Source of the DNA: Ulota crispa
Taxonomy: Eukaryota; Streptophyta; Bryopsida; Orthotrichales; Orthotrichaceae
DNA: 64,000 nt
Direction of reading: 5' to 3'
NCBI GenBank assembly: GCA_963920765.1
Contig: OY987246.1
Span: forward strand, 6,140,501 to 6,204,500
How positions within the stretch are numbered: position 1 is the first letter of the stretch; every line of letters begins with the position of its first letter. Under the pieces are notes generated by a model that saw only the letters and a list, made by a program, of their open reading frames with translations, searched no databases and was not told where the DNA came from. Positions 4,048-48,923 of this stretch are shown piece after piece. A program made the position numbers and the translations under genes.

Positions 4048-4930
4048 AGGGGGCTTCAAACATCAACATTTTTAGGTGACTCACATTGCGATTTATTTTT
4101 GTGCAGTCATTAGCAAATCACGAGGTGCCTCACTTTTGGACTTCACTCATCTCTAGATTTCACTCCTAAAATGATTCACGTGAGGAATGAACTTCAGAAG
4201 CTCACTTTCGTGAATTTGTGGGGCTCATTCACTTGCGTCCTTAACTCCTAAGCGCTCAATCGACCATTTATTGGTCGTTGCTCGTTTTTTGCGGGCCACG
4301 TTGAGATGAAAAAAAATTAAAAATTAAAAATTAAAAAACCCTTAAATAGAAAATCAAATCTACTTTCCAATCTAACTTCATGTCAATCCAAGTTGAACTC
4401 CATCAAGGAGAATTTTTCAAAGATAAACACTTTAATATTTGCTAGTGTTATAAAATTTACTATTTTGGGAAACTTATGATGTTCTCTCTTTTGAAAACAT
4501 TGCATTTTTGAAGTTTACAATAGAACATATGTTTTTAACCAATCATACCAAATTTTCAAATCTACGAATAAAATTTGTAATTTTGGTAAATATTAAATGG
4601 TAAATGCCTCTAAATTCATTAAATAAAAATCCAAAACTTTTTTTGAATGTTTAACTATATGGATAATTACTAAACATCATGATTCATGTTTTCTCTTTTG
4701 AAGCAAACTTCATCAAAGTACTTAAGTATTATTTTATAATACATCTATGTTTTGCCCTAACCCCCTTGGGCGTTTAGGGGTTAAATCCCAATTTTTTTTG
4801 CAGAAACTTCTGCAAACTCACGGGTGTCTCAAACTTTGTGCGTGCTAGGGAACAAAAAGAATTCACTAGTGAGCAGAGATCCTGTGAGGTGAGAAATTTG
4901 AAGGCCAGATTATATGTTTGAAACCCCCTA
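4048..4930. mobile_element. AGGGGGCTTCAAACAT-family MITE, copy a, split by a TTAA element
   Basis: The left part (4048-4244) starts AGGGGGCTTCAAACAT. The right part (about 4785-4930) ends ATGTTTGAAACCCCCT. Joined without the inserted element at 4245-4780, the two parts follow the order seen in the intact copies b to e. The insertion site is a TTAA in the word cgtccttaac. Confidence 0.85.
4245..4780. mobile_element. TTAA-flanked MITE 1 (piggyBac-like ends), CGACCATTT subfamily
   Basis: TTAA lies at 4241-4244 and 4781-4784. The left end reads CTCCTAAGCGCTCAATCGACC; the right end reads CCCTTGGGCGTTTAGGGG. It is nested inside an AGGGGGCTTC-family MITE. The copy at 15617-16147 has the same interior (word cgaccatttattggtcg / cgaccattttctggtcg) in the same orientation. 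Confidence 0.85.
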
Positions 4931-4931
4931 A

Positions 4932-5259
4932 TAGGGGGCTTCAAACATCAATTTTTTTAGGTGACTCACATTGCAATTCACCTTTGTGAATTCACTAGTA
5001 AATTGCGAGGTAACTCACCTCTAGACTTCACTCCTAACATGATTCATGTGAGGAGTGAATTTCAAAAACTCACTTTTGTGGCTTTGTGGGGCTCATTCAC
5101 CTACGTCCTCAAACCCCTAAACTTCTTTTGCAAAAACTTTTGCAAACTCACAAGTGTCATAGACTTTGCGCGTGCAAGGGAACAAAAATAATTCACTAGT
5201 GAGCGGAGATCTTGTGAGGTGAGAAGCTCAAAGGCCAGATTTTATGTTTGAAATCCCTA
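4932..5259. mobile_element. AGGGGGCTTCAAACAT-family MITE, copy b
   Basis: Intact copy of about 328 bp, from AGGGGGCTTCAAACAT to ATGTTTGAAATCCCT. It abuts copy a on the left and inverted copy c on the right, with only AAT or AT between them. Its open frame resembles that of copy d, but this follows from repeat similarity, not from a gene. Confidence 0.85.
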
Positions 5260-5588
5260 ATAGCGGGTTTCAAACATAAAATCCAGTTTACAAGTTTCTC
5301 ACCTCATAGGGTCCTCGCTCACTAGTGAATTATTTTTGTTCACCTGCATGTCCAAAGTTTGACATACCCGTGAGTTTGCAATTAGGGTTTTGTGCACAAG
5401 TCGGAGGTCTGAGCATTTGAGATACCCGTGAGGATGAGCCGCGCAAAAGTGAGTTTCTGAAGTTCACTCCTCACGTGAATCACGTTAGGAGTGAATTCCA
5501 GAGGTGACTCACTTTGCTATTTACTAGTGAATTCACAAAGGTGAATCGCGGCGTGAGTCACCTAAAAAATTTATGTTTGAAGCCCCCT
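5260..5588. mobile_element. AGGGGGCTTCAAACAT-family MITE, copy c (inverted)
   Basis: Runs from AGCGGGTTTCAAACATAA to TTATGTTTGAAGCCCCCT in the opposite orientation to copies a and b. It completes a three-element tandem array at 4048-5588 with shared AAT junctions. Confidence 0.85.
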
Positions 5589-5592
5589 AATG

Positions 5593-5910
5593 TACACTAC
5601 ATAGTGCATTTAGGATGCCCCATACTAATTTCTTGACATTTCACATTATTTAAATATTTACCAATACTAGAGTAACTTTTGTTAATAGTTATTGTGATAA
5701 AAAATGGAAGAAGCAAGCAAAGGTTAGGTGTAGCAACAAGTGTCAAAGTTAGGGAATAGGGAAGCTGGAACTTTATATAGAATCAATAATTAATGTAGCA
5801 TAAAGAGAGTTGCATGCCCCTCCAAGTGGCCAAGGGTGAATCATGAGGTAACTTTGCCAAGGTAAGACAACCTAATTGGTAAGGCAACCTAAATGCATTA
5901 TTTGGTGTAT
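5593..5910. mobile_element. MITE of the TGCATTTAGGTTGCC family (copy 1)
   Basis: The left end reads TACACTACATAGTGCATTTA. The right end, reverse complemented, reads TACACCAAATAATGCATTTA. Interior words such as aatttcttg.catt, ctccaagtggccaag and tcatgaggtaac recur at 10228-10539 and, inverted, at 39757-40057. Possibly TA target duplication. Confidence 0.8.
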
Positions 5911-5916
5911 CCTTAA

Positions 5917-6797: not shown

Positions 6798-6801
6798 TTA
6801 A

Positions 6802-7716
6802 CCCCTAAATTCCTGGGGTCTTTATTTTGTCAAAAGACACTCAAAATTGCCATTCCTATTGTAAAGAGTAATTTTTTTTGAAAATTGGTCTTTTTGCATA
6901 TCTAACCATAGGATCTTATACTAGACTAGTATAAGAATGTGGAAACAAAAATTCAAAAACTTTGACCGCATAGATTGCAAGATATCTGCATCCACAAGTG
7001 TAAAAAATATACTTTTTTGCACCTTGCATGACTAGACTATTTGACTTTGAACTTTTTTAACTTAAATTTTTTGCACCATAGAGTTTTGAGGTTTATTTTT
7101 GTATGGTGGGAAATTGAGTTGAGAATCATTGGAAAAAAATCAAAACAAAAAATACATAATTTTCATTCTTACAAAAAACATTAGGTAGAAGAAGGTATGA
7201 GATTGAACAAAAACTTAAATTGTTAATAACCATGCAATGGTATTGAAACTCAATAATCCCAATGGTGAGATTGTTCTAGCAAGCAAACTTCACCCTCTCC
7301 AACAATTTTTAATTTTTTTTATTAAACTTACATTCAAAAATGAAGTTTATAAATCACTTTTTCAAGAAGATGATTGAGGTGCCCAAAAATCAAGATTGTC
7401 CATAACTTTCTCATAACTAGTCCAAATGGAATGGATCAAAGCTTCAGATGTAGACAAAACTATACCCTACAAGAAAAAAAACAAAAATTAAAAAAATTCA
7501 AGTTTTTGTAAATCTGCCCAATTTGCATAAATTTTTGCTTATCTAGGCATAACCTTGCTTTTGGGCATTGATTGGAATAAAAATTATATTCCCCAAAAGC
7601 TAATGTGTTTTCTTATCTTCAAAAAAAGTTTCAAAAAATCTGAACAAAAATTGAGACTGTAGGTACTTGCCCAAAATCTCATTTGTCCCCCAAGGGGACA
7701 CTCAAGGATTTAGGGA
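6802..7716. mobile_element. TTAA-flanked MITE 2 (about 915 bp)
   Basis: TTAA at 6798-6801 and 7717-7720. Ends CCCCTAAATTCCTGGGG and (reverse complement) TCCCTAAATCCTTGAGTG. Interior is AT-rich and non-coding. The same interior occurs inverted at 23224-24118, including the shared word caaaattgccattcctatt / aatagaagtggcaatttt. Confidence 0.88.
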
Positions 7717-8170: not shown

Positions 8171-9097
8171 CCCCAGAAGGACCATTGTCCCTTCGGGGGA
8201 CAATTGGGATTTTGGGCATGTACCTATGACTAAACTACTTTGTGTAATTTTTTGAAACTTTTACAGAAGATGGGGAATTCAAAAATCTATGTGGACATAT
8301 AATTTTTTCCTCATTTTGACATTTGACAAAGAAGTTATGTAATAATTTCTACTACTCGGGGGAGGGAGGGCAATCCAGGCAGCCCAAAAACTTCTTTAAA
8401 AATTACATTTTAAAAAAATCAAAATTTGAAATTGGTTCTTTGGATTTTTTTAATATGTGGAAAGCTTTGAATCATTCCATTTCAATCAATGACATGAATG
8501 TTATGAGATGTTTTAGTTTGTGGGCAATTACAAATCCTCTACTATAAAATAAGCACTGAAGTCCTTTATTTTCCACAATTTTCAATATTTTGAAAAAAAA
8601 AACTAACCCTAAGGAATTAGATTGTTTACTACAACATTATAACCAGTGAGATTTGCATTTTTCATTTCAATAATTAAATTCTTAACAATCTAATGTTTTG
8701 ACTCATTCTCTACTCTTCTTACTTACTATTTTTTCCCATGTGTTATATAGTTCCAATTGATTTGAAAATTCTCCCACTCATGTCTAACTTGGTCTTTTAC
8801 ATGAAAAAAATAAGCCTCAACTTTGTGTAGAGCAGTTTTTTTCATGTAAAAGTGGTCAAAGGCTTCTAGTTTTTTTGGAGAGCATGGCAAAAAACCTTTT
8901 TTTTCACTTCAAATGTAAATATCTCCCTCCTCTCCATCTAGCATGACCTAATTTTTTTCCCACAAGTACCTCTTCTAGTTTAAGGCAAGATCCTAAGGTT
9001 GGATTTCCAAAAAAAAAAAATCTACCTTCTTACTCATCCCCTAAAAGTGGCGATTTTCAATAATTTTGACAGAAAAAAGGGCTTGGTCCTTTAGCGG
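8171..9097. mobile_element. TTAA-flanked MITE 3 (about 927 bp)
   Basis: Left TTAA at 8167-8170 followed by CCCCAGAAGGACC. The right end GGTCCTTTAGCGG is followed by CTAA at 9098-9101, one change from TTAA. Interior begins gggcatgtacctatgactaa. It matches the copy at 20711 in the same orientation and the one at 10818-11731 in inverse orientation. Confidence 0.8.
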
Positions 9098-10722: not shown

Positions 10723-11918
10723 AACACCATATTTGTTAAATTGGGAAAAGCAAAGGTACCATTTTGTACTCTACCTTAAACCCAAAAAGTTACTTTAAAC
10801 CCAAAAAGTTACCTTAACCCCTAAAGGACCAAGCCAAATTTTCTGTGAAAAACACAAAAAACTGCCACTTTTGGAGAAGCAAGTACAATGGTAAGAAAAA
10901 AAGTTTTTTATGAGTATCCAACCATCTTACAGCAAACTACAAGAGGTACACCTCATAAAAAAATCAGCTCAATCTACAAAAAAATGGGTGAGATATTTAC
11001 ATCTGAATTGCGAAAAAAGCTTTTTTTGCAGCTGGCCAAAAATTTCAAAATGCTTTGACCACTCTTAGAGCAAAACAATTACTCTACACAAAGTTGAGGT
11101 TTATTTTTCCATGTAGGAGACCAAGTTAGGTATGTGTGGGAGAAATTTCAAATCAATTAGAACTATACAATACATGGGAAAAAATAGTAAGTAAAAAGAA
11201 GTAGATAATGAGTCAAAACACTAAATTGTGAAGAATTTAATTATAAAAATGAAAAAGTCAAATCCCAATGGTTATAATGTTGTGATAAACAATCTACAGC
11301 CTTTGGTTTTGTTTTTATTTCAAAATAATGAAAATTGAGTAAAATAAAGGACTTCAAAGTTTATTTTAGAGTAGAGAATCTAGAACTGCCTGCAAACAAA
11401 AACTCCTCATAACTATTATCTTGTCTATTAGAATTGGATGATTCAAAGCTCTCCACATCTATATAAGTCTAAAGAAACTATTTCAAATTTTTATTTTTAA
11501 AAAATGGAAATTTTAAAGAAGTTTTTGGCTGCTCAGGGAGCGGCATTTTCTAGATTTTCATGCATAACTTCTTCATCGAATGTTGGAATGAAGAAAAAAT
11601 TACATTCCCACATAGATCTTTGACTTCCTCACCTTCAAAAAAAGTTTCAGAAAATCACGCAAAGTAGTTTAGCCATAGGTACATGCCCAAAATCTCATTT
11701 GTCCCCCAAAGGAACAATGGTCCTTTAGGGGTTAAACCAGATTTGAAGGTATCAAATCCAGTCTGGGCCACTAAGAAATTTTCCCTCACAAATCCCTCCT
11801 CTCAAGTGAGGGCACTAGTACCAAAACAAATGCTGCGAGCTTGGTTTTAGGTGATCACCTAAAACCTTCAAAAGCCCCAAAATGTACTCATTTTCCCAAT
11901 TTTAACGAATATGGTATT
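10723..11918. mobile_element. AACACCATATT-family MITE (copy 2), split by TTAA element 4
   Basis: The left end AACACCATATTTGTTAAATT and the right end ATTTTAACGAATATGGTATT are inverted repeats. Next to them come ttgggaaaa and gtactc..ccttaa, as in the intact copy at 19102-19371. Removing the nested TTAA element plus one TTAA leaves about 278 bp, close to the 270 bp of the intact copy. Confidence 0.78.
10818..11731. mobile_element. TTAA-flanked MITE 4 (914 bp)
   Basis: TTAA at 10814-10817 and 11732-11735. Ends CCCCTAAAGGACCAAG and (reverse complement) CCCCTAAAGGACCATTG, 14 bases identical from the tip. The right half matches the left half of elements 3 and 7 inverted (gggcatgtacctatggctaa). It is the innermost of three nested elements. 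Confidence 0.9.
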
Positions 11919-12588
11919 CTATGCTTCAAACATCAAGACGTACATTCATTGCAAGATCTTAAAAAAATGATTTTGAAAAAACGAAATCACTATGTCAAGG
12001 GTATTTGTGCAATTTCTGAAAATTGAGGGGTATTTGTATAAATATTGCAAAATTCCAGGGGTATCCATCCAAAAAAAATCCATAGTTATTAGGTGTACAC
12101 GCATTCCTAAAAACTAGTTAAACTTAAATCTTTACAAAACCAATAACAAACCTGAAACGGAACCACATTCTGTTACCGAATGGACGCAACGCTTGCCTTC
12201 AACCAATTAACCCTTCATAAGCCCGGCCATGTATAACCAGTCCCGTTGCATTTTCAATTTCCTCTGCTTCCACACAAGCTCGTCGACCTCCTTCAGCTAC
12301 CTAGCTCGGAGTCGTCGAGTGCCGGATTCAGCCCTGACGCACTAATTTTTAACCCTTTTGTACGTGCATGTGCAGCACCGACATTCCAGACTTCTCTGGA
12401 GGGCGCAGCCAAGCTTCGAACGAGCGGGAGATTTGCTAATGGTCTGATTCTCAAAAATTTGTGTTGCAACGTCTAATTCGTGAACAGGTATTGCAGAATT
12501 AATCCTCGGAGGAGACAAATTAACCCAGGTACGTTTCTATTTCATCCCCTAGCTAGCAAGCTATTTAAGTTAGCTGGTACGTGCGACC

Positions 12589-13227
12589 ATGTCGTACCTA
12601 AATCGGAAGGATAAGATGAATCCGATGGTGGAGTCGTTGTACTACCAAAAGCCGGCGGGGCTGGTGGTGCGGAGAATGGAGAGGACCAAGGAGTACGAGG
12701 AGATCGAGCCTACGGGCGAGTGGGCGCACGCCGACAACGCGCCGCGGGTGCAGCGAGAGGTGGCGGCGGCGGACTCGGACTGGATCATGAGCAAAGAGCG
12801 CATGGAGTACCGGCACCAGAAGATCATCGACATTCTGGACGAGATGATGCCCAGGCTGCCCAAGGAGACCTTCGACCGGTTTCTGGAGAGAGCCTACTCG
12901 ACTGCCAATCTGGCGTTGAACCGAGCGAATAAAGCCATCACGGGTGACGAGTGTGCGGATTTAGGGGATCGGTGGATGGTGCGGTTTGTGCGCGGGTTCA
13001 GGTTGATTTCTAGGTCCACGGGCGTGGGGTGGAGGACGGAGGAAGAGGCGCTGCTTTTTAAGCTGGTGCGTGAGGAGTGCGACATGCTGACCAAGCAGGA
13101 CGTGCAGTTCACGGACTCGCGGTCGAGCGTGCGCGTGACGAAGCGGCCGTGGGAGCGCGAGATCGACGACAGCCATCCCACGGACTACCGAGAAAACATC
13201 GGCGACCCTTCCAAGTTCAATGCTTGA
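12589..13227 (+). CDS. Uncharacterised protein, paralogue of the gene at 16679-18441
   Basis: Single-exon frame of 212 codons starting ATGTCGTACC in a good context (gcgaccATG). It is GC-rich, unlike the flanking DNA. I do not recognise the family. Residues about 70 to 175 are predicted mostly helical and charged. Key words are YRHQKI, MMPRLPKETFDRFLERAY, GDECADLGDRWMVRFVRGFR, GVGW and LVREECDML. A hand alignment with the minus-strand paralogue runs ungapped over 94 residues with 36 identities, so this is a true protein family. It has no signal peptide or membrane segment. The N-terminus (MSYLNRKDK) and the C-terminal tail are not shared. It lacks the intron of its paralogue at the matching Arg codon, so either an intron was lost (possibly through a retrocopy) or one was gained by the other gene. 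Confidence 0.85.
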   Translation: MSYLNRKDKMNPMVESLYYQKPAGLVVRRMERTKEYEEIEPTGEWAHADNAPRVQREVAAADSDWIMSKERMEYRHQKIIDILDEMMPRLPKETFDRFLERAYSTANLALNRANKAITGDECADLGDRWMVRFVRGFRLISRSTGVGWRTEEEALLFKLVREECDMLTKQDVQFTDSRSSVRVTKRPWEREIDDSHPTDYRENIGDPSKFNA

Positions 13228-14246: not shown

Positions 14247-14318
14247 CCCATTAACTCCCGAGCGACCTGTATGTGGTCGATTTCTAGTGTATTTTGGGAC
14301 CATTCGAGTGTTAATGGG
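14247..14318. mobile_element. TTAA-flanked mini-element 5 (72 bp)
   Basis: TTAACCCATTAACTCCCGAG at 14243 and GAGTGTTAATGGGTTAA ending at 14322 form an inverted repeat flanked by TTAA. A second TTAA pair lies just inside (14251-14254, 14311-14314). It may be a drastic internal deletion derivative of the TTAA family. Confidence 0.6.
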
Positions 14319-15616: not shown

Positions 15617-16147
15617 CCCCTAAGTGCCCAATCGACCATTTTCTGGTCGCTACCTGTTTTTTTCAGGCTGCCCGAGACCAAATTTTAAAAAAACATTTTT
15701 TTTTGTAATAGAAAATCAAGTCTACTTTTCAACTAGACTTGAATCATGTCAATCCAAGTTAAACACCTTCAAGGAGAATTTTTCAAAGACAAATACTTCA
15801 ATATTTGTTAGTCTTGTAGAATTTACTATTTCTGGAAACTAATGATGTTCCCTCCTTTCAAAAGATAGCATTTTTGAAGTTTAGGATAGAATGTTTATTT
15901 TTAACCAATCATACCAAATTTTGAAATCTATGAGTAAAACTTGTAATTTTGGTGAATATTAAATGGTAAATGCTTCTAAATTCATTAAATAAGAGTACAA
16001 AACTTTTTTTGAATATTTCACTATATGGATAATTTCTAAACATCATGATTCTAATTTTCTCTTTTGAAACAAACTTCATTGAAGGTACAAGAATATTTTT
16101 TTTGAATGCATTTATGTTTTGCCCTTACCCCCTTAGGTGTTTAGGGG
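15617..16147. mobile_element. TTAA-flanked MITE 6 (531 bp), CGACCATTT subfamily
   Basis: TTAA at 15613-15616 and 16148-16151. Ends CCCCTAAGTGCCCAATCGACC and (reverse complement) CCCCTAAACACCTAAGGGGG. Full-length match to element 1 (536 bp) in the same orientation, sharing cttcaaggagaatttttcaa / catcaaggagaatttttcaa. Confidence 0.9.
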
Positions 16148-16678: not shown

Positions 16679-18441
16679 TTAGCAGGAATCCATGCGCGTG
16701 AGAGTATCCAACTGCGAAGGAATCTTGGTGTACTCAAAATTTTGCAGCATCTCCACAGTTGGCCACGGTGAAACAGTAGGATTGCGGCTCAACTTGGGGT
16801 CCAGGGATAAGTCGCCACCCTCTTGAAGCGCCAAACATTGTTCCCGCAGCAATTGCAACACTAGCTCCTCCGTGTCCACGCCCCAACTCACTCCCTTCAC
16901 CCGCTGCTTGGACCTAGCCCACAAACAAAACAAGATTCATGATTTTTTTCTTCTTCTTTCCTCCCCATAACCAAAATGCCATTTTCTTCAAAATGCTGGT
17001 ATTCCATTACTTTGGCATGATCAAGGCCAAATAGTCCAGATCCAAATTCTATATTAATCCTAGTTTATGGATTGAAACTTGACCTTTGAAAAGACATGTA
17101 TCATTATCTTGGTGCATTAATAGGTGATCAAAATTGATAATTTGCTATATCATTGGAAACTTCTGACACTAGTGGGATTTGTGGGCTTGTACACTAGAAT
17201 TGGTGCACACATAAGATGAGAGTATTCATGTTTATGAAATTTTATCATTTTTAATATATGTCAATTTTGTTAAAATGGGGCTATGCCATTTTTATGGCAC
17301 AATCCAAGCTGCACAACCTAAAACCCCAAATTTGTACTTATCCTAGATTCTAAACTAAAATCATTTTTTTGTGAAAATAATGTCACTATTGTTGACACAC
17401 AAATACCTCCATTTTAACAAAATGGGGCTTAATAGAAGTGGCAGTACTAAGATAGGAGCACCCATAAGCGTGAGTTTAAGGGTTTTGGGGTAGGAAAACT
17501 AGTTGATGGGCTTTGAAAAAAATAGTGTCAAGTCAGGAAGAGGAAACAAAAAATATTGGCATCAATTTCAAAATCCCAATTGCAAGCATTTGTTCACAAT
17601 GATTTTTCAAAGTCCTAAATTGCTGAAATTGTATAGTTGTGTGTAAGATGTCTTTAGTGTGCTCATACGCTCATAATACTAACTTGAAGAGTTCTTAAAA
17701 TATAGAGATGCGGCGCTCAAAACCATCACTTAGTCACCCATAACCATCACTTTGTCACCCATAACCATCACTTTGTCACCCATAACCATCACTTTGTCAC
17801 CCATAACCAGTTTTGTTTTTCATTGTTAGTTGTTGACATCACTAACACAAGTAGGTATCAGAGATGGGGACACTATCGATGAGGGGTGCTCCTACCTTAA
17901 ATGTTTGTTAGAATGAGAGTGATAGATTTGAATACAGCAGTGGACCTCTATAGAGCATTTTTTGACCAAAAATCTAACAATTTCTTTTTGAAGGAATTGA
18001 AGGAAGGGACCTAGAGCCCATGAAGAGGCGGAACACAAATCGGTCGAGAGCGTGGATGTACTCGTCGCCCATGTGCATCTTCTTTGTCTGCTTCAGCTCT
18101 AGCTCCGCCGAGCTGGAACACCGCCGCAGGTACGCGCGGAACGACTCCCCGTGCAAGCGTGGCACGCACGTTTGCAGCCACTGCGTGATTTTCTGCTCTC
18201 GGAATTGAGGACGGTGGTTGGCGGGGATGGTGCGCAGAGTGGCGTGGGTGACCCAGTCGGGATTCTCCGCACAATGCCGCACCTCTGCCTCGCGGTACAC
18301 CACGACGTTGGAGCCGTGGTGAGTGGGTCTGTCCCAGTTGCAACAATGCTCCACATTGGCCACGTTGTGGAACTGCTCTCCTTTTCCCACCGAACTGCAA
18401 TCGCCTTGTGCTGCTGCCGCATTGCAGCGTCCGTTTGCCAT
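16679..18441 (-). CDS. Uncharacterised protein, paralogue of the gene at 12589-13227; two exons
   Basis: Exon 1 is 18441-18011 and exon 2 is 16913-16679. The intron is 1,097 bp with GT-AG ends (TCTAG|GTCCC and GCTAG|GTCCAAG) and splits an Arg codon. The spliced product is 221 residues. Core words are FREQKI, VPRLHGESFRAYLRR, MGDEYIHALDRFVFRL, GVSW and LLREQC. They align without gaps to the plus-strand paralogue across the splice, which confirms the intron. The first 75 residues are Cys/Asn-rich and not shared. I do not recognise the family and see no signal peptide or membrane segment. The intron holds a MITE (17450-17896) with a 21-bp tandem repeat. The two paralogues are convergent and about 3.5 kb apart. 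Confidence 0.85.
17450..17896. mobile_element. MITE of the AGRTAGGARCACC family (copy 2)
   Basis: Left AGATAGGAGCACCCATAAGC; right (reverse complement) GGTAGGAGCACCCCTCATCG. The flanking triplets are CTA and TTA, one difference from a perfect duplication. Inverse orientation to the copy at 2712-3024. It lies in the intron of the minus-strand gene. Confidence 0.82.
17721..17808. repeat. Minisatellite, 21-bp unit, about 4 copies
   Basis: Unit ccatcactttgtcacccataa repeated four times. The first unit differs by one base (cttagtc). It lies inside the intronic MITE and is absent from the other copy of that MITE. Confidence 0.95.
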
Positions 18442-21640: not shown

Positions 21641-21722
21641 TTAACATCCTTTCTCTTTGTTTGAAACTTATACACAAATCTTATTGCCTCGAAAAATAAA
21701 TGAGCCCTTAACCCCTGAGCGC

Positions 21723-34400: not shown

Positions 34401-35480
34401 GCGTTTGAAGTCAGTGACGTTGAGAATGGATATTTTACCAAGGCACCTAGAATGGTCAAGTATGGCAAACTTGCAATATTTAGACCTTAGGGAGAGTAAG
34501 GGGATGCGTAGTTGCAGTGGCCTAGAAGACTTGGTTGTATTGGTGGAGCTTGATTTGGGGGGTGTGGTGATCTTAAATCATTGCCGAGTTTGGAAAAGCT
34601 CATGAAGTTGGAAAAATTGGATATTACGGTATGCAAGATGATTTCAGCTGTGCCAGGTCTAGATTGCTTGGTGGCTTTACAAGAATTCAAGGCTCGGGAG
34701 TGCAATAGGTTGAAGAGGTTACCAAATATGCAAAAGCTTTCAAACCTTGAGGTACTTGATTTGCATGGGAGTTCGGTAGAGCGAGTCCTAGGGCTAGAGG
34801 GCTTGACCGCCTTGCGACAGCTTTTTGTTGGCTTTGATATGGTGAAAGAGTATTCCAGTCAACCGCAACTTACAAAGATGCAAGATATGGAAATTCGTTC
34901 ATGGGGAAGAGAAGGATTATCATGTATGGTTGGTTGGACAAATTTGGTTACTTTGGACATTCATAGTTGTGATGGAGTTTGCAAGTTGGAAGGTTTGGAA
35001 AGTTTGTCAAGCTTGCAAACACTTGAGATTGAAGATTGCGACTTTTGGGATGTGTCAATCGTGAGTTGCTTGACATCGTTACAAACACTGAAGATCCAAC
35101 GTTGCAAGGAATTGAAGAAGGTGCCCAATTTGGACCGGCTTTTGAAGTTGGAAATACTTTGGTTGTGTGCATTAGGTTTAGCGTATTGGGGGGGATTTGG
35201 GCCTCTTCTGCAGCTACAAATTTTGAGGGTAGATGATTTACCAGTCCATTGTCTTCCAAATCTCAACAACTTTCCGCAATTGATATGGTTAGATATTTCA
35301 AATTGTCACTCTCTAACTAGTGTGACTAGTGACGGACCACTAGCAATGTTGGAGATACTTCGTGTCACCAATTGCAGTAGTTTGGAGTCTTTGCCAAATT
35401 TTAGAAGGTGCACCCAATTGAGAGATGCTACTATACTTAGTTGTCCTAGTTTGAAATCAGTGCTTGATTTTAGTGATTGA
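31438..35480 (+). CDS. TIR-NB-ARC-LRR immune receptor (bryophyte-like TNL), with an apparent frameshift in the LRR
   Basis: Intracellular NLR receptor. Exons: 31438-32097 (TIR: NVFLCHSGEQKVFVEW, SVFFDK, VVILSQAFFTRSRWPMVEL, whose Glu matches the NADase position), 32249-32515 (P-loop GLYGMGGIGKSTT), 32689-33336 (kinase-2 KVFLAVDNV, FVVVTARS, HPLALKVLGG, FMDVALFFP) and 33805-35480 (MHD motif VGMHDLWREFC, then LRRs). All introns are GT-AG, phase 0. The LRRs repeat about every 23 residues (LEKLMKLEKLDI, LSSLQTLEIEDC, LTSLQTLKIQRC). The LRR frame changes at a run of six G (34557-34562). One more G would give LDLGGCGDLKSLPSLEKL and one frame to the stop at 35478-35480, about 1,080 residues. This is a sequencing slip or a recent pseudogene. 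The start is uncertain: ATGs at 31438, 31468 and 31474, or a splice from upstream, are possible. Confidence 0.92.
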
Positions 35481-35927
35481 ATTCCCCATTTTTGTCAAAT
35501 TGATGGATATATGGGAGAAGATGGAGTGATGGTAACTTTGTAAGAGGTGAAAAATCTGAAGGGGATCATTATTGAAGCGAGATGGAGGACTACAAAGAGC
35601 GCTTGCTTGCCTTGATCTATGGGGGTTGCTATGACAGCACAAGGGATTATTACGGAGTTTGTGTTGGTGTGTATTAGAGTTACACTCCAAGTTGTGGTAA
35701 TTGGAGCAAAGCATGCTTGGAGGAGTTGGAGGAGTTGGCCTCTAGCATGAGAACTTTAAATCCTTTATCAATTTCTCTATGGTTGTGGTTATGTGTGTAT
35801 TTGCAAATTTGTGATATTCCTTAGTATTGTTGAATTTGGCACAAAATGGTTGGCTTTGTAAGATTCAAGTGGAATCAGTGAAGTGAGTGCCGACAAAACA
35901 AAGGTTGGAATTCAAACATTAGGAGGC
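35481..35927. other. 3' flank of the TNL gene
   Basis: Presumed 3' untranslated region and spacer before the next MITE. No other gene is seen. Confidence 0.35.
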
Positions 35928-36244
35928 TTCAAACGTCAACTTTTTTAGGTGACGTTATGATTCACCTTTGTGAATTCACTCGTGCACCGCAAGGTGGCTC
36001 ACCTCTAGACTTCACTCCTAACTTGATTCATGTGAGGAGTGAACTTCAAAAACTCACCTTTGTGGCTTCTCACGGCTCATTCACCTGTGTCCTCAAACCC
36101 TAAAACTTCTCTTGCAAAAACTTCTGCAAACTCATGGTTATCTTAGACTTTGTGTGTGCAAGGGAACAAAAACAATTCCCTGGTGAGGGTAGATCCTCTG
36201 AGGTGAGAAGATTGAAGACCAAATTTTATGTTTGAAGCCCCCTA
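35928..36244. mobile_element. AGGGGGCTTCAAACAT-family MITE, copy e
   Basis: Runs from AGGAGGCTTCAAACGTCAAC to TTATGTTTGAAGCCCCCT. ATT flanks both sides, a candidate 3-bp target duplication. Confidence 0.85.
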
Positions 36245-36352
36245 TTGAAATGGAATTGGTGTTGGCAAAACATGATTTCAACCATGGATTATGTAGAACA
36301 TAGACTTTCAAGTACTTTGGGGTTAACGTCAATCCCTTCTGAAGGTCCTTAA

Positions 36353-36997
36353 CCCCAAAACTACCCTGGAGATTCCTAAGCTTTTAAGAAAATTCTCTAA
36401 TCTGAACAAAAAGCCAACATTTGGATAAGTTGTATCCATTCCTTTTGAATTGTAATTGTAAAAAATCAAACTACACATGTTAGAGATCACATTAGAAAAG
36501 AAAACACAACAATATCTCTTATAGATTGAAAGATTATAATGTTTAATCATGAGCTTGTTAAAACTGTGAAAATGATTTGAAATCTTTCAATCTTCTTTCA
36601 CATGTCAAATTTCAAAAGTTGGTCACCAAAAAAATATGAGGTTAAAGGGCCTAACATGCATAACCCCAATCAATTTATGACTTCTCAAAATCTACTCTAC
36701 AATTTTTTTAAATGGATTTCTAATGCGATTTTTTCTCAAAGATCTAGTGTACTTGAGGCTCATTCCCAAGAGCCCTCAACACTACATAAAGTTAAGATTG
36801 CAATGGACACCCGTGCACAAAATCTTGAATAGGAAAATCATAATCAATCATTTGCAAAATCAAATTGTTGAAGCTAAAACCAAACTTCAAAAAGAACTTT
36901 CAAAAAAATAAATTACTAAATATAGTAATTTGGTAAGGTTTTATTCAACTTCAAAAATTGGTTGAGGACACATTTTGTCCTCAATGTTGTTTTGGGG
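36353..36997. mobile_element. TTAA-flanked element 12 with CCCCAAAAC ends (645 bp)
   Basis: Left TTAA at 36349-36352 followed by CCCCAAAACTACCCTGG. Right (reverse complement) CCCCAAAACAACATTGAGG, followed by TTAC, one change from TTAA. The tip differs from the usual CCCCTAA, so this may be a separate subfamily. Confidence 0.65.
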
Positions 36998-37095: not shown

Positions 37096-38008
37096 CCCCT
37101 AAAGGACCAAGCAAAGTTTTCACCAAAAACTCTTCAAAACTGCCATTTTTAGAGCATCAACCAAATTTGACAATAAAAATATTTTTATGCATATGTAACC
37201 ACAGGATCTTGTAGAAGAATAATTTTAGAAGATGTGGAAAAAAATTCAGAGTTTTCCACCTCATGGATTGGAAGTTAGAATGGTTTGAATATTCAAAAAC
37301 TTCTTGTGAAAAACCGGGCAGCTACCCTTCAGAAAGTGAAATTCCTAAGGAAAATAGGCCATGTGGGTGGCGCTTCTCTAAATTCCTTATTCCACCTAAG
37401 TAAAGTACATGTCAAAAAAGTTTCAAATCATTTGGAGTTGTATAACATATGGAAAATTATTAATAAGTAAAAAGAAGTAGAGAATGATTCAAAACACTAA
37501 ATTGTTAAGAATTTAATTATGGAATTGAAAAATGCCAATCCCAATGGTCATAATGTTGTCATAAACAATATTCATCCTTTGGTTTTGTTTTTTTTCCAAA
37601 ATGTTGAAAATTGAGTAAAATAAAGGACTTCAAAGTTTATTTTGGAGTAGAGAATTCATAACTGCCTGCAAACAAAAAATCCTCATAACTTTCATCTAGT
37701 TAATCAAGACGGAATGATTCAAAGCTTCCTACACTCACATAAATCTCCTAAACCAATCTAAAATTTTCGTCTTTGAAAAAAGTGATTTTAAAAATCTGCC
37801 CAGGCTGCCCGCCAAACTAAAAAAGAAAAATATTAGGCCATAACTTTTTACTCATAATTCCAAATGTCATGAAATTTAGTGCATATGAAAGATAAACCTT
37901 GTCCCCACAATCTGTTAAATTTTCAGCCTAAAACATGAAAAGCTCCAATCACAAGTATTTGCTCGAAATCGCTATGTTTCTAAAAAGGGGGGTCTGGTCC
38001 TTTAGGGG
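37096..38008. mobile_element. TTAA-flanked MITE 13 (913 bp)
   Basis: TTAA at 37092-37095 and 38009-38012. Ends CCCCTAAAGGACCAAGC and (reverse complement) CCCCTAAAGGACCAGACC, 14 identical terminal bases. The inverse of element 10. Confidence 0.92.
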
Positions 38009-38037: not shown

Positions 38038-39713
38038 TCCCTAAATGCCCAAGCAGGTTAGTAGCACTTTTTTGGGAACATGACGATTTTGGGCAACTCA
38101 CTACTAATGTCCTTTTCATCCTTTTTCTTTGAAATTTTCACACGTGATGTGCCCAAGGAGTAGTTTTAAGGTCCAAAAACTTTCAAAACTTTTGACTACA
38201 TGGTTCAAAAGTTATTGCATGATATGTAGTTTTTTTTGAACTCCAGGCAGCTTGGGCAACTCAAAAAAATTCTTTAAAATTTACATTATTATTTTTTACT
38301 TTTTTGAAATTGGTTTTTTAGACTTATATATACGTGAGAAGCTTTGGATCATTCAATTTTGAGTAATGAGATGAAAGTTATGAGAAGTTTTAGTTTGCAT
38401 GTAGGTATGGAGTTTCTCAAAACCATACCTACCCGCAAACTAAAATTTCTTGTAACTTTCATCTCATTTGTTGAAATTGAATGATTAAAAGCTTCCCACA
38501 TATATATAAGTCTAAAGAACCAAATACTGTAATTTTTAGAGAAGTTTTTTGAGCTGCCTAGATTGCCCGGAGTTCAAAAAAAACTCCATAATATGTAGCA
38601 ACTTTTGAACCATGTACTCAAAAGTTAGGAAAATTGTTGGACCTTAATCCCTAAAGCCCAACGGGTGTTGCAAAGAAAAACAAGACCAAAATTGCCCTTT
38701 TTTGATGATTTATTTAAAATTCAAAATAATTTTTTTAGTTTCAACCATACAAAAATATAATATATAAGTTAGGCAATGTGTGAAAAAAAATTCAGCCCAC
38801 TTGACCACATAGATTGTAAGGTTATGATGTTTGAAGTGAGAAAAACAATTTTTTTCATTCTTGCAAAACAAGGTTAGCAAACTTCAAGCCCTCCTTGATT
38901 AAAATTTTGCTCTATACAGAAACAAATCTTTTGACCATTCACAAGTATATGATGCTAGGTTCCCTCATAAAAAAATTCAGAAGCAAATATAGAATCTAGC
39001 TTATTATAAATCACCATGTAATGCAAGGAGGTTTAGTGAATTGGCAATACACTAGTCATTTTTTCATGATTTCTTGTGCAATAACAAAGTCTCTTATTTG
39101 AAATTTGAACGGTGAAAAGTTAAAGACAAACATTAGGAATATGTAAAAAAACTCAAGAGCTTTGGATTTATAGACTCAAAGATAATTGGGCTTGAAGTTA
39201 GAAGAAAATATCTTTTCTTGGAACCTCCCAAACATAGTTAGCAAAATTTTGCTCCTCTTAGAAAGTGATGTAAGAGCTCAATTTTCTTTTTTGACAATAG
39301 TGTACAATATTTTATTAGTTACATACATGCTCAATACATGCCAAGTTTCAAAAGTTAATGAGAGTTTTAGCATAGGATTCTCCAAAGATGCCCAAACTGC
39401 CCAAGGTGCCCAAATCCTTTTGGGCAACATAACTTTTTACTCAAGCATCCAATCAAGTTTTTTTCTTCACACAATGATTTAGGTGTGTGCACCTTGTCTC
39501 CAAGTTTCAAAAACATCCGTTAAAACTTGACTTCATAGGAACCTACTTGAACTTTCAACCAACTGTTAAACAAACTTTTGTGGTTTAGGGGCTAAAGCTA
39601 CGTCTTGGGCACATTGTGTGTGAAAACTTCAAAGAAAAAAGATGAAAATTCCATTTGTAGCAAGCTGCTCAAAATTCAATTTATCTCCCGCAGGAACAAA
39701 TGGCTTTTAGAAG
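38038..39713. mobile_element. Foldback TTAA MITE 14, interrupted by element 17
   Basis: The left end TCCCTAAATGCCCAAG follows ATAA (a decayed TTAA). The right end GGCTTTTAGAAG is followed by TTAA at 39714-39717. The two halves are inverted repeats around about 38405 (tagtttgcatgtaggtatgg / ccatacctacccgcaaacta). The right arm is split at 38648-39591. The order aaagctac.tcttgggcaca resumes immediately after the insert, as in the intact foldback at 43306-44047. Confidence 0.82.
38648..39591. mobile_element. TTAA-flanked MITE 17 (944 bp), nested in element 14
   Basis: TTAA at 38644-38647; CTAA (one change) at 39592-39595. Left end TCCCTAAAGCCCAACGGG; right end TTTTGTGGTTTAGGGG. The host site ccttaaagctac is uninterrupted in the sister element at 43926-43937. 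Confidence 0.82.
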
Positions 39714-40747: not shown

Positions 40748-42227
40748 CCCTTGGGCGCCCTAGGCGCAGCTGTCGCACGAGATTGAAAGAAGAGCTCTCC
40801 CGACCTTGGATTGAGTTGTCCTTGCCTGGGATTGTACCAGGGCTTACGGGGTAGGCTTGCTGATGTTGCGGAGTGGGGGAACAGGTTGGTAGTGGATTAG
40901 TTTAGGGGATATGGGGTGTTGAATTGCTGGGTGTAGTGTTTTCCCAACCGGGACAACTTCAAATAGCCGGTTGATGACCGGCAAAGGGTTTTGTCGCAAG
41001 GTTGACGTGTCCGGGTTTCCTGTGTTGTCCTTGAGAGTCATTTCTCAACCGAGAACTCACTCCCTTCTACCATTGACCCTGTCATTGAGTTATCTTGGTT
41101 ACGGTGAAAATGTCTGAACCGTCAGAACTCTCGCGGACTGTTTGTGGACGTGGTTTTACACCAAAATGGAGCGGTGAGCACAATTCCTATGCACGAGGGG
41201 AGAGAGGTTGTGTCCAAGTTTAGCACGTCCAAGAACACGTTGAATTTGTTTGTTGATCTAAGAGCGTCTCCACTGGTGGCTCAAAGTAGATGAAAAGTAG
41301 CTAGGCCCCTCTCAGGCCACGCTCAAACTCTCTTATTTGGCGAGTCTAGCAAGCCACTCTTCAAACCATTATTCATGCACTATTCACCCTAACTTTAGTG
41401 AGCTCTATCCTCTACTTCCTTAGATAAGTGGTCAACTGCTTATTTATTGGGTGTCTTGGAGTGCTAGGCCACCTTTTCAAAAAGCATGGGTGGAAATTGG
41501 GAGCCTTCAAGCCACACCAAACCAGATGAAAAACTTTGAACAAGTCCGAACCGGTGGAGATGCTCTAACCCGCTACAGGAGTACGGGGTCGACGTGTCTA
41601 CTTTGACGTTGATCGAAGTCGTGCTTATAAAAATCCAGTCAGTCTTACCAGACTACAAAAGAGAAGGACGCACTCTCGCTATTTTTTCCGACCCTAGTGC
41701 TTCTAACCGAAGCATTTGGGACCGGCAACGCGGGAAACATGTGCTGGCAAGCGGTACAGAGGGAGAAGACAGTGGGGGGAGACAGCGTGTCTGTCAACCC
41801 ATACCCTCCAGCCGGTGTAAACCTGCAACCCAGCTGAAACCGACCTTCATTCAGAACCACCCATGTAGTGATTTGTTGCTCCAAAATTTCTGAATTTTTG
41901 CATCATATTAGCTAATTCACCCTAGAAGATTCTCTGAAAGTTTTGTGGATTCACACCTCAAAAGAAGCATGTACTGATGTTGCAAAGCGGTGACTGGTCG
42001 GAGTGTTGACCCATCGAAGAAAGTCAAACTAAATTTGACCGCTATAAGTTTTCTTCCTAAATGGTGAAACCCTGTGCAGACTGCAATTCTAGGTTCACGT
42101 TTGTGCTCTGAATCGAAGCATACGGTCACTTTTGCCGGATCTGCCTACACTGTTCATGGCATGGATATAAATAGCAGTACCCCTTCCCGGGCTCTCTTCC
42201 TCTGAAAACGCACTGCGCCATTGGGGA
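40748..42227. mobile_element. TTAA-flanked element 18 (1,480 bp, GC-rich)
   Basis: TTAA at 40744-40747 and 42228-42231. Ends CCCTTGGGCGCCCTAGGCGC and (reverse complement) TCCCCAATGGCGCAGTGCG. Longest member; the interior is GC-rich but I find no transposase. It hosts the GAGCATCTCC MITE at 41262-41566. Confidence 0.75.
41262..41566. mobile_element. MITE with GAGCATCTCCACC ends (copy 2), TAA target duplication, nested
   Basis: Left GAGCGTCTCCACTGGTGGC; right (reverse complement) GAGCATCTCCACCGGTTCGG. TAA on both sides (41259-41261, 41567-41569). 305 bp, inserted in TTAA element 18. Confidence 0.88.
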
Positions 42228-42301: not shown

Positions 42302-42952
42302 CCCCTAAAAGCTTTTGACTATGTTTTCATCAAAACTGCCCCAAAATTGTCATTTGTAGTGCAAGTATCAAATTTTAAATAAAATTTATTTTTGGACACA
42401 TCTAACCGTAAGATCTTGTAGTACACTAGTATCCAAAGATGTAGAAAAAAAATCATAAATTTTTGCCATGTGGATTGTTAGGTGATTGAGTTTGAATTGA
42501 CAAAAGGTTGTTTTTTGTCTTTGCAAAAATCTAGGTAGTTGCACTTCACAAGGTCATATTTGTATGAAAAAAAGTTTCAAAATGGTTGTAATTTTTTTGA
42601 TTCATTCTTCAAGGCAAGTTGGGTACACACTTGAAAATTTTCAAATTGTTTGGAATTGTACAACACGTTAGAAAAAAACAATAAGTAAAAAGAAGTAGAG
42701 AATGATACAAAACACTACATTGTTAAGAATTTAATTATGAGAAATGAAAATTCCAATCCCAATGGTCAAAATGTTGTAATAAACAATTTTACATACTTTG
42801 GCTTTATTTTTTTTTCCAAAATATTAAAAATTGAGTAAAACATAGGACTTAAAAGTATTTTTTAGAGTAGGGAGTTCATGATTGCCAGCAAATAGAATCT
42901 CCTCATAACTTTCATCTCATTGATGGAAATTGAATGATTCAAAGCTTCCCAA

Positions 42953-43017
<65 letters not shown>

Positions 43018-43301
43018 TCTCTCTCTCTCTCTCTAAAGAACCTATTTCAAAAAACAAAATTCAAAAAATGTAATTTTAAAAAAAGTTTTTTGAGTTGCCC
43101 GGGCTGCCCCTTGAACAAAGAAAACAACATATCAAGCAATAACTTTTGAACCAATTAGTCAAAAGTTCTGAAATTTGTTGGACCTTAAAGCTACTCCTCA
43201 AACACATCATGCGGTAAAATTTCAAAGAAAAAAAAATCCATTTGTAGTGAGTTGCCCAAAATCGCTATGTTGCTAAAATACACTGTTTGGGCCTTTAGGG
43301 G
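42302..43301. mobile_element. TTAA-flanked MITE 15 (1,000 bp)
   Basis: TTAA at 42298-42301 and 43302-43305. Ends CCCCTAAAAGCTTTTGAC and (reverse complement) CCCCTAAAGGCCCAAACAG. Contains a TA microsatellite. Its right TTAA is also the left TTAA of element 16. Confidence 0.9.
42954..43034. repeat. Microsatellite (TA)n followed by (CT)n
   Basis: About 28 TA units (42954-43012), then nine CT units to 43034, inside TTAA element 15. Sister elements have a short tatatata or catctatataag at this point. Confidence 0.97.
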
Positions 43302-43305
43302 TTAA

Positions 43306-44047
43306 CCCCTAAAAGCCCACATGTTCCTTTTGGGGACAAAATAGATTTTGGGCAGCTCACTCCAAGTGGAATTTTTATCTTTTCACTATGAAATTTTCAC
43401 ACATGATGTGCCCAAGGAGCAGCTTTAAGGCCCAACAATTTTCATGACTTTTGACTAATTGGTTCAAAAGTTATTGCATGATATGTTGTTTTTTTTGAAC
43501 TCTAGGCAGCATGGGCAGCTCATAAAACTTCTTTAAATTTTGAATGTTTTTGAAGTTTTTTTTTTGAAATTGATTCTTTAGACTTATGTGTATGTGGGAA
43601 GCTTTGAATCATTCAATTTTGATAGTTGAAATGAAAATTATGAGAAGTTTTAGTTTGTGGGTAGGAATGGAGTCTCTCAAAACCATACCTACCCGCAAAC
43701 TAAAACTTCTAGAAACTTTCATCTCATTAATTGAAATCAAAAGATTCAAAGCTTCCCATGTACACATAAGTCTAAAGAACCAATCTCAAAAAAAAAACTT
43801 CAAAAAAATTCAAAATTTAAAGAAGTTTTCTGAGCTGCCCATGCTGCCTAGAGTTCAAAAAAAACAACATATCATGCAATAACTTTTGAACCAATTAGTC
43901 AAAAGTCATGAAAATTGTTGGGCCTTAAAGCTACTCCTTGGGCACATCATGTGTGAAATTTTCAAAGTGAAAAGATAAAAATTCCACTTGGAGTGAGCTG
44001 CCCAAAATTGCTATTTTGCCAAAAAACAGTGCTTGGGCCTTTAGGGG
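43306..44047. mobile_element. Foldback TTAA element 16 (742 bp, nearly full-length palindrome)
   Basis: TTAA at 43302-43305 and 44048-44051. Each half is the inverse of the other: tagtttgtgggtaggaatgg / ccatacctacccgcaaacta at the centre (about 43680), ttcaaaagttattgcat / atgcaataacttttgaa, and cacacatgatgtgcccaagg / ccttgggcacatcatgtgtg. The loop is about 10-20 bases. A transcript would fold into a hairpin with arms of about 360 bp. Confidence 0.92.
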
Positions 44048-44415: not shown

Positions 44416-44657
44416 CCCCTGAGCGCCCCAGGACCTCAAAATGGGGCATCTCAGTTTTGAAAAATTTCCACATTTGACTCTTATCCTCTTTTTAATGGTA
44501 AAGTCAAAGGACTTGTACTATTTCATGTATCTTTAGGCATGTGTCTACTACCACTCAAAAGAAATTCAAGCTATTTGACCCCATTTAGGTAATACTTTTA
44601 TTGGACTAAGTACACAAGGGTATGGATTTAAGTGAATATGGCCTAGGTGCTCAGGGG
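44416..44657. mobile_element. TTAA-flanked MITE 19 (242 bp)
   Basis: TTAA at 44412-44415 and 44658-44661. Ends CCCCTGAGCGCCCCAGGACC and (reverse complement) CCCCTGAGCACCTAGGCC. Confidence 0.88.
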
Positions 44658-46070: not shown

Positions 46071-46074
46071 TTAA

Positions 46075-47291
46075 CTCCTAAAGGATCAAGCACAATTTTT
46101 CTCAGAAAATACTCAAAAATGTCATTTCTAGTGATTTGATCCCAAAATAGTTTTTTCAAAAAAGTCCAAATCTAACCATAAGATCTTATAGTAGACTCAG
46201 GCCCGGTTCAGACTAGCAACCGGCTAAGACATGGAAATTGGCACCACGTTTGGTGTTTCGCTTGATAGAAACTTTTCTGTGTACTCGCGTGTCATCCAAG
46301 AGTGTGTCTTTGTCGGACAAGTTTGGTACCACCCTTGGAGCAGGCCCCAAATCTTCACTATCTTGGCCGCTGATGTGGCTATATAGGGTGGTCCCCACGG
46401 TGATGAAGATGGATGTAAAAGTATTGGACAAACGTGCAATTTGATCCCAATAGCGGAGCAAAGCCAAATTTCAACCAATCACGTTTTAGAAATTTTTGGC
46501 TGATCGCTAGTGAGAATTGGGCCTTATTCAAGAACATAACATGAAAATTTTGTGAACTTTGACCGTACGGATTGAGAGATATGATCATCTAAAGGAAGTA
46601 CATGAAGTTTTTTTTATCCTTGCCCAAAATTTTCAAAGTGCCTTTGACCACATGTGGTGAACAAATTTTGCACTATAGGTGCTAAAGATATTTGTCCAAC
46701 AAGCCCTGAACCATGTTAGGCATAATTCTACAAGTTTTTGTGACCAACCAAGACATGGAACACACCCTCCATGGCTTTGCATTGCCAACATGTGCTTGAA
46801 ATTCACACTACACTTTTGTTTTTCCAGCCAACTTTTCTAAAGATACATTAAAGAAAACTAAAATCCAAGAGAAGAATTGGAAGAGTTTAGATTTATTGAT
46901 AATCACAAAAAAGAAAATTGGAAAAAAAACCAAACCTCTAGTAGCTATTGCAATTCAAAAGTTAATGTATTTATCAAATATTATCATGTATTTATTTAGT
47001 ACACTATTGCTTTGGATAGATTCCAATGAAGGGTCGTCCCTTCATTGGTTCTCCTTGGGAGGAGTCAACAAAAAATGGCATGCCCAGGCTGCCCCTCCAA
47101 CTGCAATTCACATGGTCATTCTTCTGACTTTTGAATCATAAATCATAATTCAATAAAATTTGTTCTCCCACATAACTCTTGTAAAACTCTACCTTTGGAA
47201 GAAAATTATAAAAATTGGTCATAAATTATAGTAGAATGACCCTGCCCAAAATCCCAATTGTCCCCCAAAGGAACAAACGGTCCTTTAAGGG
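46075..47291. mobile_element. TTAA-flanked MITE 20 (1,217 bp), carrying a nested MITE
   Basis: TTAA at 46071-46074 and 47292-47295. Ends CTCCTAAAGGATCAAGC and (reverse complement) CCCTTAAAGGACCGTTTG. Holds the GGCCCGGTTCAGA MITE at 46200-46523; without it the length returns to about 890 bp, like other members. Confidence 0.87.
46200..46523. mobile_element. GGCCCGGTTCAGA-family MITE (copy 2, inverted, nested)
   Basis: Left GGCCCGGTTCAGACTAGCAA; right (reverse complement) AAGGCCCAATTCTCACTAGC. Inverse of copy 1 at 27436-27763. Both share cttggagca.gccccaaatc / gcttgctccaagggtggtac and the cacgtcagc / gctgatgtgg region. Confidence 0.82.
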
Positions 47292-47700
47292 TTAATGCTA
47301 CTCACATACTTGTTGAGTTATTAAGAGCCGGATTATCAAATAAAGCCATAAATATTTTATGTAAAAATATTGGTGGGGACTAGGTGAAAAGGTGGATCAA
47401 GCAAAATGTTCGAATCAATATTGAACAAAATTCTACCTTCACGGGGCCAAAAAATGTTGCAGTGTAGACAAAATGTAGTGAATAGGGATGTAGGACTTGA
47501 AACATAGTTTGAATTGTCAAATCTCAACTTTTAATTTTAGATCAATCAAATCCTTGAAAATTTAGTGGAATTTGAAACGTGGGACATAGTATTAGCCGCC
47601 CTTCAAGTTCCAATTCAATACTCGTTACCAAATTTTATTGAGGCGTAAAGGAATTATAAAAAATACCGAAAGAAGGCTTGAATATTCCAACCCCTAAGGC

Positions 47701-48142
47701 CTTAGCTATATTAAGAAATTTTGAGACAAAACTGCCCAAAATTGTGACCTTCTGATACGCAGTTGTGAGTTTTTGGGGTGACTTTTTGTACACTTCATTG
47801 TGCAATTTCAAGGTTAATCTGATTTGGTGTGGTCAAATGTACAATAAAAATGGCTCCAAAATTCACTGTAAGTTGTATTATAGAAGATCACAATGTTAAG
47901 CAATTTTTTTTCTCAAGTTGCTTAACTCTTGAACGGCCCAGAAGTTCTTTGCTGCTGTATGTATGGTTGTATGTACAGACGTATTTGAGCTGCTCTAAGG
48001 GTTTTTCAAAAAAAATTATGCACCCATCATCATACAATTTTTCAATATGTATGGTTGTAACACTTAATTTCTAATTGATTCAAACTTTTGAATATTAGTT
48101 GAGACCGTATTGTAACTCCAAAACCCAAGGGCCCTTTACGAG
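47701..48142. mobile_element. TTAA-type MITE 21 (442 bp)
   Basis: Left end CCCCTAAGGCCTTAGC preceded by CCAA (a decayed TTAA). Right end GGGCCCTTTACGAG followed by TTAA at 48143-48146, which also starts element 22. It has one degenerate flank, so the left border is less sure. Confidence 0.65.
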
Positions 48143-48146
48143 TTAA

Positions 48147-48923
48147 CCCCTGAGCACCCCAGTGTCCCATATATTGCCTCTTGCAATCTCCAAGACTTGT
48201 TTTGAGGGACTAGATCTAACTTTTTGATCTTACTATAAACTACAATTGTGAAAGCATTCGAGTTGTCCATGCCAATGGAGTAATGGTGAGGAAAAGCCAA
48301 ATGTTGTACAAGTGCTACAAGAGATTTGATTGGGGTGAAACACCATATGGGGCGTGGTAGCACCGTACAGGGCTTGGTGGCAAGCAGCGTTTTACAGGCT
48401 ACAACTGGTCAATATCCCTTGCAAGCTTCCTTGTGTAAGCTTTGTGGTAGCAGGAAGTTTGTTGGCAAGGGTTCAAGCATGTTCTAGATCCTTATTATGG
48501 CAACCGTCACCAATTGTGCCGGTCATTGTTTTCTTTGCAATAGCAATTTGAAGCCCTAAAACTTGACATAAAAAAAAGTGTAGTCTTCAATAATTTACAA
48601 GTATGTGCATTCACATCTAATCTTGTTGCTTACAAAGTTTGAGATGAATCCAAGGCTTATAGAATTTTGTAAAATTCATCAAATAGCAATTATCTACTAG
48701 AAAATGAGATTTTGCCATCACATGTTGTTTGATCAAATGTTATAATCTCCCATCTCCCAAGGTGAATTGTTCCCGAAATTTGCAAGCCATTTTCTAAGTA
48801 GGTGTTCCACTACTTTCAATGGTCACTTTTTGTGGATCATCCAATTGACAGAGATACAATATATCAAAGTTGTTGATCTCCAAAAACCTTGATTTTGGTA
48901 AAAACAGCCTGGGCGCTAAGGGA
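48147..48923. mobile_element. TTAA-flanked MITE 22 (777 bp)
   Basis: TTAA at 48143-48146 (shared with element 21) and 48924-48927. Ends CCCCTGAGCACCCCAGTG and (reverse complement) TCCCTTAGCGCCCAGGCTG. Confidence 0.87.

Follow-up and report, generated by a model that had tools for sequence, protein, structure and literature searches.

Gene-less elements inserted at TTAA in a moss contig, candidate non-autonomous transposons of the piggyBac superfamily

The window analyzed here is a 64,000-nucleotide stretch of the moss Ulota crispa (contig OY987246.1, positions 6,140,501 to 6,204,500 of the forward strand), and positions are counted from its first letter. Gene-less elements inserted at TTAA are a confirmed feature of this window and, as far as seen, the elements are non-autonomous. 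We recovered 22 candidates with 43 ends and a total of 17,308 bp, a figure in which the nested pair is counted once and the right limit of the candidate at 20711 is extrapolated. TTAA lies on both sides of 17 of the 21 two-ended candidates (16 of 20 without the doubtful 40748–42227), and the remaining four (8171–9097, 36353–36997, 38648–39591 and 38038–39713) carry a single base change on one side. The original prediction of 22 elements of 72 to 1,480 bp, occupying about 17.5 kb and flanked on both sides by TTAA or near-TTAA in all but one case, agrees closely with these figures; the 1480-bp candidate is the doubtful one, and 20711 is the one without a right end. The TTAA elements in this window have tips of the kind CCCCTAAA, and inverted tips of about 13 bp are common to several interior families. 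The candidates are listed below with their left/right flanks; strand is undefined for all, and the palindromes are numbered by their centre.

4245–4780, 536 bp, TTAA/TTAA: element; subfamily with 15617–16147; left-end palindrome (bp 25); its host repeat has uninterrupted copies.
6802–7716, 915 bp, TTAA/TTAA: element; subfamily with 23224–24118, opposite orientation; right-end palindrome (bp 25).
8171–9097, 927 bp, TTAA/CTAA: element; left-end palindrome (bp 24).
10818–11731, 914 bp, TTAA/TTAA: element; subfamily of 8171–9097, opposite orientation; right-end palindrome (bp 24).
14247–14318, 72 bp, TTAA/TTAA: candidate; variant tip CCCATTAAC; ends agree at 13 of 15 bases; lacks an interior relative in the window.
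15617–16147, 531 bp, TTAA/TTAA: element; left-end palindrome (bp 25).
20711–21658: element; only its left end was found, and the right limit is extrapolated by homology to 8171–9097.
21712–22508, 797 bp, TTAA/TTAA: element; tip CCCCTGAGCGCCC; no interior relative.
23224–24118, 895 bp, TTAA/TTAA: element; left-end palindrome (bp 25).
25941–26832, 892 bp, TTAA/TTAA: element; subfamily with 37096–38008.
28164–29135, 972 bp, TTAA/TTAA: element; right-end palindrome (bp 25); no interior relative.
36353–36997, 645 bp, TTAA/TTAC: element; variant tip CCCCAAAAC; right-end palindrome (bp 25); no interior relative.
37096–38008, 913 bp, TTAA/TTAA: element.
38038–39713, ATAA/TTAA: outer element; homologous to 43306–44047; split by 38648–39591.
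38648–39591, 944 bp, TTAA/CTAA: nested element, inside 38038–39713.
40748–42227, 1480 bp, TTAA/TTAA: doubtful candidate; ends agree at 5 of 15 bases; without relatives in the window.
42302–43301, 1000 bp, TTAA/TTAA: element; TTAA at 43302–43305 common with its neighbour; alternating TA and CT runs inside.
43306–44047, 742 bp, TTAA/TTAA: element; inverted repeat over its whole length (369-nt arms, 89%).
44416–44657, 242 bp, TTAA/TTAA: element; tips CCCCTGAG; no interior relative.
46075–47291, 1217 bp, TTAA/TTAA: element; right-end palindrome (bp 25); contains a copy of another repeat (46199–46524).
47926–48142, 217 bp, TTAA/TTAA: candidate; TTAA at 48143–48146 common with 48147–48923; no interior relative.
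48147–48923, 777 bp, TTAA/TTAA: element; no interior relative.

Three alternative pairings of ends (14255–14310, 38038–38648 and 38648–39713) were examined and dropped. Two pairs of neighbours, 43301/43306 and 48142/48147, have one TTAA in common.

The association of the ends with TTAA was measured in two ways. A 17-bp scan of both strands of the window for TTAA plus any of three end consensuses, allowing at most two mismatches, located 27 sites (15 on one strand, 12 on the other), while 20 simulated first-order Markov sequences, scanned on one strand each, contained none; the three consensuses were derived from the finding itself, and the count of 27 is therefore not independent of it. The candidates had been picked partly by their TTAA, so a scan for the 13-bp end alone gives the fairer figure. 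TTAA lay outside all nine exact matches, eight of ten matches with one mismatch (the two exceptions reading TTAG and ATAA), eight of 12 with two mismatches and seven of 32 with three, against a background of TTAA starts at 0.61% of the positions in the window. Among the 19 ends with at most one mismatch, the four flanking bases are T in 18, T in 19, A in 19 and A in 18, and the next four bases outward show no clear preference, giving conservation a sharp edge at four bases.

Uninterrupted relatives of two insertion sites are present in the window. For the nested element 38648–39591, all three homologous arms, drawn from two other elements, are uninterrupted and carry the four-base target once (CCTTAAAGC), and the filled site reads CCTTAA, element, CTAAAGC. 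Element 4245–4780 lies within another repeat, three of whose four related copies are uninterrupted with a single TCAA, the filled copy having TTAA on both sides; the fourth relative is not alignable at the site. The relatives thus show insertion at a four-base target, of which empty sites have one copy and filled sites two. These empty sites are paralogous relatives in the same window, neither orthologous sites nor excision products; the original prediction of non-autonomous elements inserted at TTAA, which had called for orthologous sites, is supported by them. The repeat family that supplies the empty-site partners of 4245–4780 has ends near TAGGGGGCTTCAAACAT and occurs, partly tandem and inverted, at 4042–5589, 25497–25827 and 35916–36246.

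Interior homology was assessed by self-BLAST (E ≤ 1e-8, alignments of 60 bp or more). Interior relatives were found for 12 of the 22 candidates, in the groups 4245/15617, 6802/23224, 8171/10818/20711 and 25941/37096/42302/43306/38038. The mates occur in both orientations and are mostly 73–85% identical, so the copies look old. The members of one subfamily proposed earlier, which by our mapping of its numbers are 21712, 44416 and 48147, have only their tips in common. A further repeat of 326 bp, with ends near AGGCCCGGTTCAGA, forms an inverted pair (82%) at 27437–27762 and 46199–46524, the second copy lying within the miniature inverted-repeat transposable element (MITE) at 46075–47291.

The elements are probably old non-autonomous, MITE-like DNA transposons, moved in trans by the cut-and-paste action of at least one transposase of the piggyBac superfamily, a reading to which we give a probability of about 0.72. 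By target, termini and end structure piggyBac appears the best-supported assignment, short of proven membership. The piggyBac terminus is given as 5'-CC..GG-3' in the available part of PMC10045372, and the ends here begin with CC in 30 of 43 cases and with CT or TC in the other 13; both this terminus and the TTAA target duplication are found in the window. ATAA, the flank that adjoins element 38038, has also been given as a piggyBac duplication (PMC8634313, available part), and one coral piggyBac-related MITE family (III) starts with CCCCT (PMC2872659, available part), the main tip found here. Under this reading the transposase would bind the tips; in elements that have a palindrome near bp 25 in one end, the C-terminal domains of the transposase would bind there; and the excised element would be joined to a new TTAA. 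The transposase gene would lie elsewhere in the genome or be extinct.

The palindromes lie close to the tips. At least six of eight pairs match about a centre at bp 25 in seven of the 43 ends and about bp 24 in two more, compared with 0.9% of random positions, and bp 25 ranks first of 139 centres by the count of ends with at least six pairs. The nine palindrome-bearing candidates (of 22) have one such end each, and in all nine the opposite end has fewer than six pairs at bp 24–25. By eye, there are four sequence types: CGACCA..TGGTCG, TGTCCC..GGGACA (with variants), CACCAG..CTGGTG and GAGGACA..TGTCCTC. A precedent exists in the piggyBac of Trichoplusia ni, whose C-terminal domains bind a palindrome at bp 17–33 of the left end (PMC7351741) and whose right end carries the same palindrome at another distance (PMC11707139), and in piggyBat, whose palindromes are on the left end only and unrelated in sequence (PMC11707139), as described in the available parts of these papers. 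Unlike ends with a subterminal palindrome are documented for piggyBac and piggyBat and provide no universal definition of the superfamily. The match in palindrome position becomes modest when related ends are counted together. More tentatively, a native land-plant piggyBac lineage could have been resident for a long time and seeded many diverged MITE families, in which the palindromes changed sequence from family to family and kept their centre at bp 24–25, as if the C-terminal DNA-binding domain and its palindromic site had evolved together within a fixed geometry that animal piggyBac also has; we consider this possible and rather less likely than not to be so.

Several observations weigh against the piggyBac reading. 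A Pfam scan of all six frames of 4245–49246, with stops read as X and stop-ridden frames less sensitive to decayed remnants, found TIR, NB-ARC and LRR (leucine-rich repeat) domains plus a weak DUF7319 match (E 0.02) only, and no transposase, DDE_Tnp_1_7 included. The original prediction had proposed piggyBac-like mobilisation, to be checked by looking for DDE_Tnp_1_7 bounded by the same ends; the target, termini and end structure fit it, and the check, run on 4245–49246 only, found no such transposase. The main tip, CCCCT, is outside the four conserved motifs of an animal piggyBac survey (CACTA, CCCTC, CCCTT and CCCAT; PMC10813416, available part), and the best match to six coral piggyBac ends, 11 of 13 bases, is equalled by shuffled tails in 5.7% of trials, an identity that would not be significant alone. 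The likeness to piggyBac in palindrome position was spotted after the palindromes had been seen, and by mean pairs bp 14, 15, 78 and 89 exceed bp 25. No palindrome at bp 24–25 is found in 34 of the 43 ends, some of which have palindromes elsewhere, for example at bp 28–29; the latter are AT-rich, and runs of T and A give such matches easily. When ends are averaged per homology group, bp 24/25 scores 2.67 of 21 groups, 25/26 scores 3.53 and 46/47 scores 2.53, under a crude grouping that joins many ends (the binomial for three of 21 is 0.005, uncorrected). The palindrome is at one end here and at both ends in T. ni piggyBac. Ten of the 22 candidates have no interior relative in the window by self-BLAST. 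Finally, a TTAA target and a TA target with fixed neighbours are not strictly told apart.

TTAA insertion is not peculiar to piggyBac. Sola3, third of the Sola groups, likewise has TTAA as its insertion site, and the elements could be non-autonomous Sola3 elements moved by cut and paste by that other transposase. The TTAA duplication fits this explanation, and plants do harbor Sola elements: in the available parts of the sources, a 2022 land-plant review lists Sola (Sola1) for Physcomitrella in its table, and a C-fern table gives 2,739 Sola matches. The plant Sola named in that review is Sola1, however, and the CC..GG termini and the palindrome at bp 25 fit piggyBac. Termini of Sola3 were not found in the literature passages searched, so the comparison provides no test of Sola3; on balance we regard Sola3 as unlikely, though it is the foremost of the alternatives. 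Scarcely more favored is a TTAA-targeting superfamily undescribed so far, or one left unconsidered. It would agree with the lack of a coding relative in the six-frame scan of 4245–49246 and with a main tip outside the four common motifs, whereas the target, the CC..GG termini and the layout of the ends are those expected of piggyBac.

The other candidates are separated by the tips or by the four-base edge. Both piggyBac and Kolobok make TTAA duplications, and Kolobok termini are 5'-RR..YY-3' (PMC9587614, available part). The duplication would thus suit Kolobok MITEs, yet 30 of the 43 ends start with CC and not one starts with two purines, which speaks against them; in addition, Xenopus Kolobok tips start with AG, and the best identity of the ends here to five Xenopus left tips, the others being left out of this control, is 5 of 13. 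Kolobok was set aside on its tips as highly improbable. Somewhat less remote are Tc1/mariner elements of the Stowaway-like kind, with tips ACCCC..GGGGT and a TA duplication, the outer T and A of the flank reflecting target preference only. Empty and filled sites look identical under such a TA model, and a Tc1-like copy is present in the window at about 55097–56681; its CAGT/CGGT tips are unrelated, however, and 18 of the 19 near-exact ends retain the outer T, the same number as retain the innermost A, leaving Tc1/mariner very unlikely. Least probable of all are PIF/Harbinger (Tourist-like) elements with a 3-bp TTA/TAA duplication, a common plant MITE type with TAA/TTA duplications according to the available part of a 2023 review. 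A direct duplication of 3 bp would not account for one conserved base per side and would make the tips unequal, whereas the observed four-base edge is symmetric. PIF/Harbinger, like Tc1/mariner, was set aside on this edge.

The Tc1-like element just mentioned is about 1,585 bp long (55097–56681), with TA flanks, tips CAGTGACGAAC / CGGTGACGAAC and a 280-aa stop-to-stop frame (55386–56228) that matches a Tc3-type helix-turn-helix at 31.2 bits, the Pfam cut-off being 31.5. Its length is within one base of that of the moss element PpTc1, which has 1,584 bp and CAGT tips; Tc1-like elements are also known from angiosperms (PMC4054914, available part), which leaves the length as a faint hint of a moss. 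Beyond 4245–49246, Pfam coverage was of selected frames. Selected frames of the window gave matches above the Pfam cut-offs to class-II DAHP synthase (two frames), a TIR domain, leucine-rich repeats and an ion-channel domain, and an NB-ARC match below the cut-off; such a set would fit a green plant, probably a land plant. Positions 30001–36000 show a strong skew of G over C (0.23, 0.41 and 0.30 per 2-kb step) on the strand that carries the TIR, NB-ARC and LRR frames. The proteins of open frames 12574–13227 (+) and 17974–18459 (-) are 29% identical over 129 aa (E 2e-12, single comparison), with no Pfam match at E 0.01. Two large adjoining foldback repeats, about 73% related to each other, occupy 50373–52071; their arms measure 223 nt at 93% (50373–51158) and 326 nt at 97% (51193–52071). 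One exact end pattern had no match in viral contigs, an Rfam search at gathering scores gave no match, and a tRNA search found none.

The piggyBac superfamily is best known from animals, and its residence in land plants is unsettled, as reviews disagree. In the parts of these sources that were available, the 2022 land-plant review gives Tc1-Mariner, hAT, Sola, MuDR, PIF-Harbinger and CACTA as the plant superfamilies with terminal inverted repeats, piggyBac being absent, while a 2023 review places PiggyBac among seven angiosperm MITE superfamilies, a 2024 review has piggyBac in its list for plants, a 2023 abstract mentions piggyBac from plants, and a C-fern repeat table contains 1,230 PiggyBac matches. 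Matches to "piggyBac" in the available text of a Niphotrichum paper proved to be the word piggybacking and were discarded. The literature searched, available in part, contained no description of a land-plant piggyBac transposase. Discovery of the transposase in a genome-wide search would decide whether land plants have a resident piggyBac, and the elements would then provide a natural series of differing palindromes at a fixed spacing for studying how a transposase reads its ends.

Among known systems, as far as the available parts of the sources describe them, the coral CMITEs (PMC2872659) have the same TTAA duplication, tips of 13–14 bp starting with CCC, several similar-tipped families and no coding content. 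CMITEs are about 100 bp long, however, and autonomous piggyBac copies exist in the coral genome, whereas the elements here range from 72 to about 1,480 bp (1,676 with the nested copy), have a plant host and a partner so far unseen. The ends of T. ni piggyBac and of piggyBat from Myotis lucifugus (PMC7351741, PMC11707139) are similar in their TTAA, short tips, unlike ends and near-tip palindrome. In T. ni piggyBac the palindrome is at both ends with unequal spacing (PMC11707139), and the elements here, known from DNA alone, differ from both systems in having palindromes in nine of 22 candidates that vary between families. The Kolobok/T2-MITE elements of Xenopus (PMC6004289) have the same TTAA duplication and differ in their two-purine tips, where the present elements have C or T. 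Plant Tc1-like elements (PMC4054914) are similar in their short terminal inverted repeats and AT-rich target, and are distinguished by a TA duplication and CAGT tips from the TTAA and CCCC of the elements described here.

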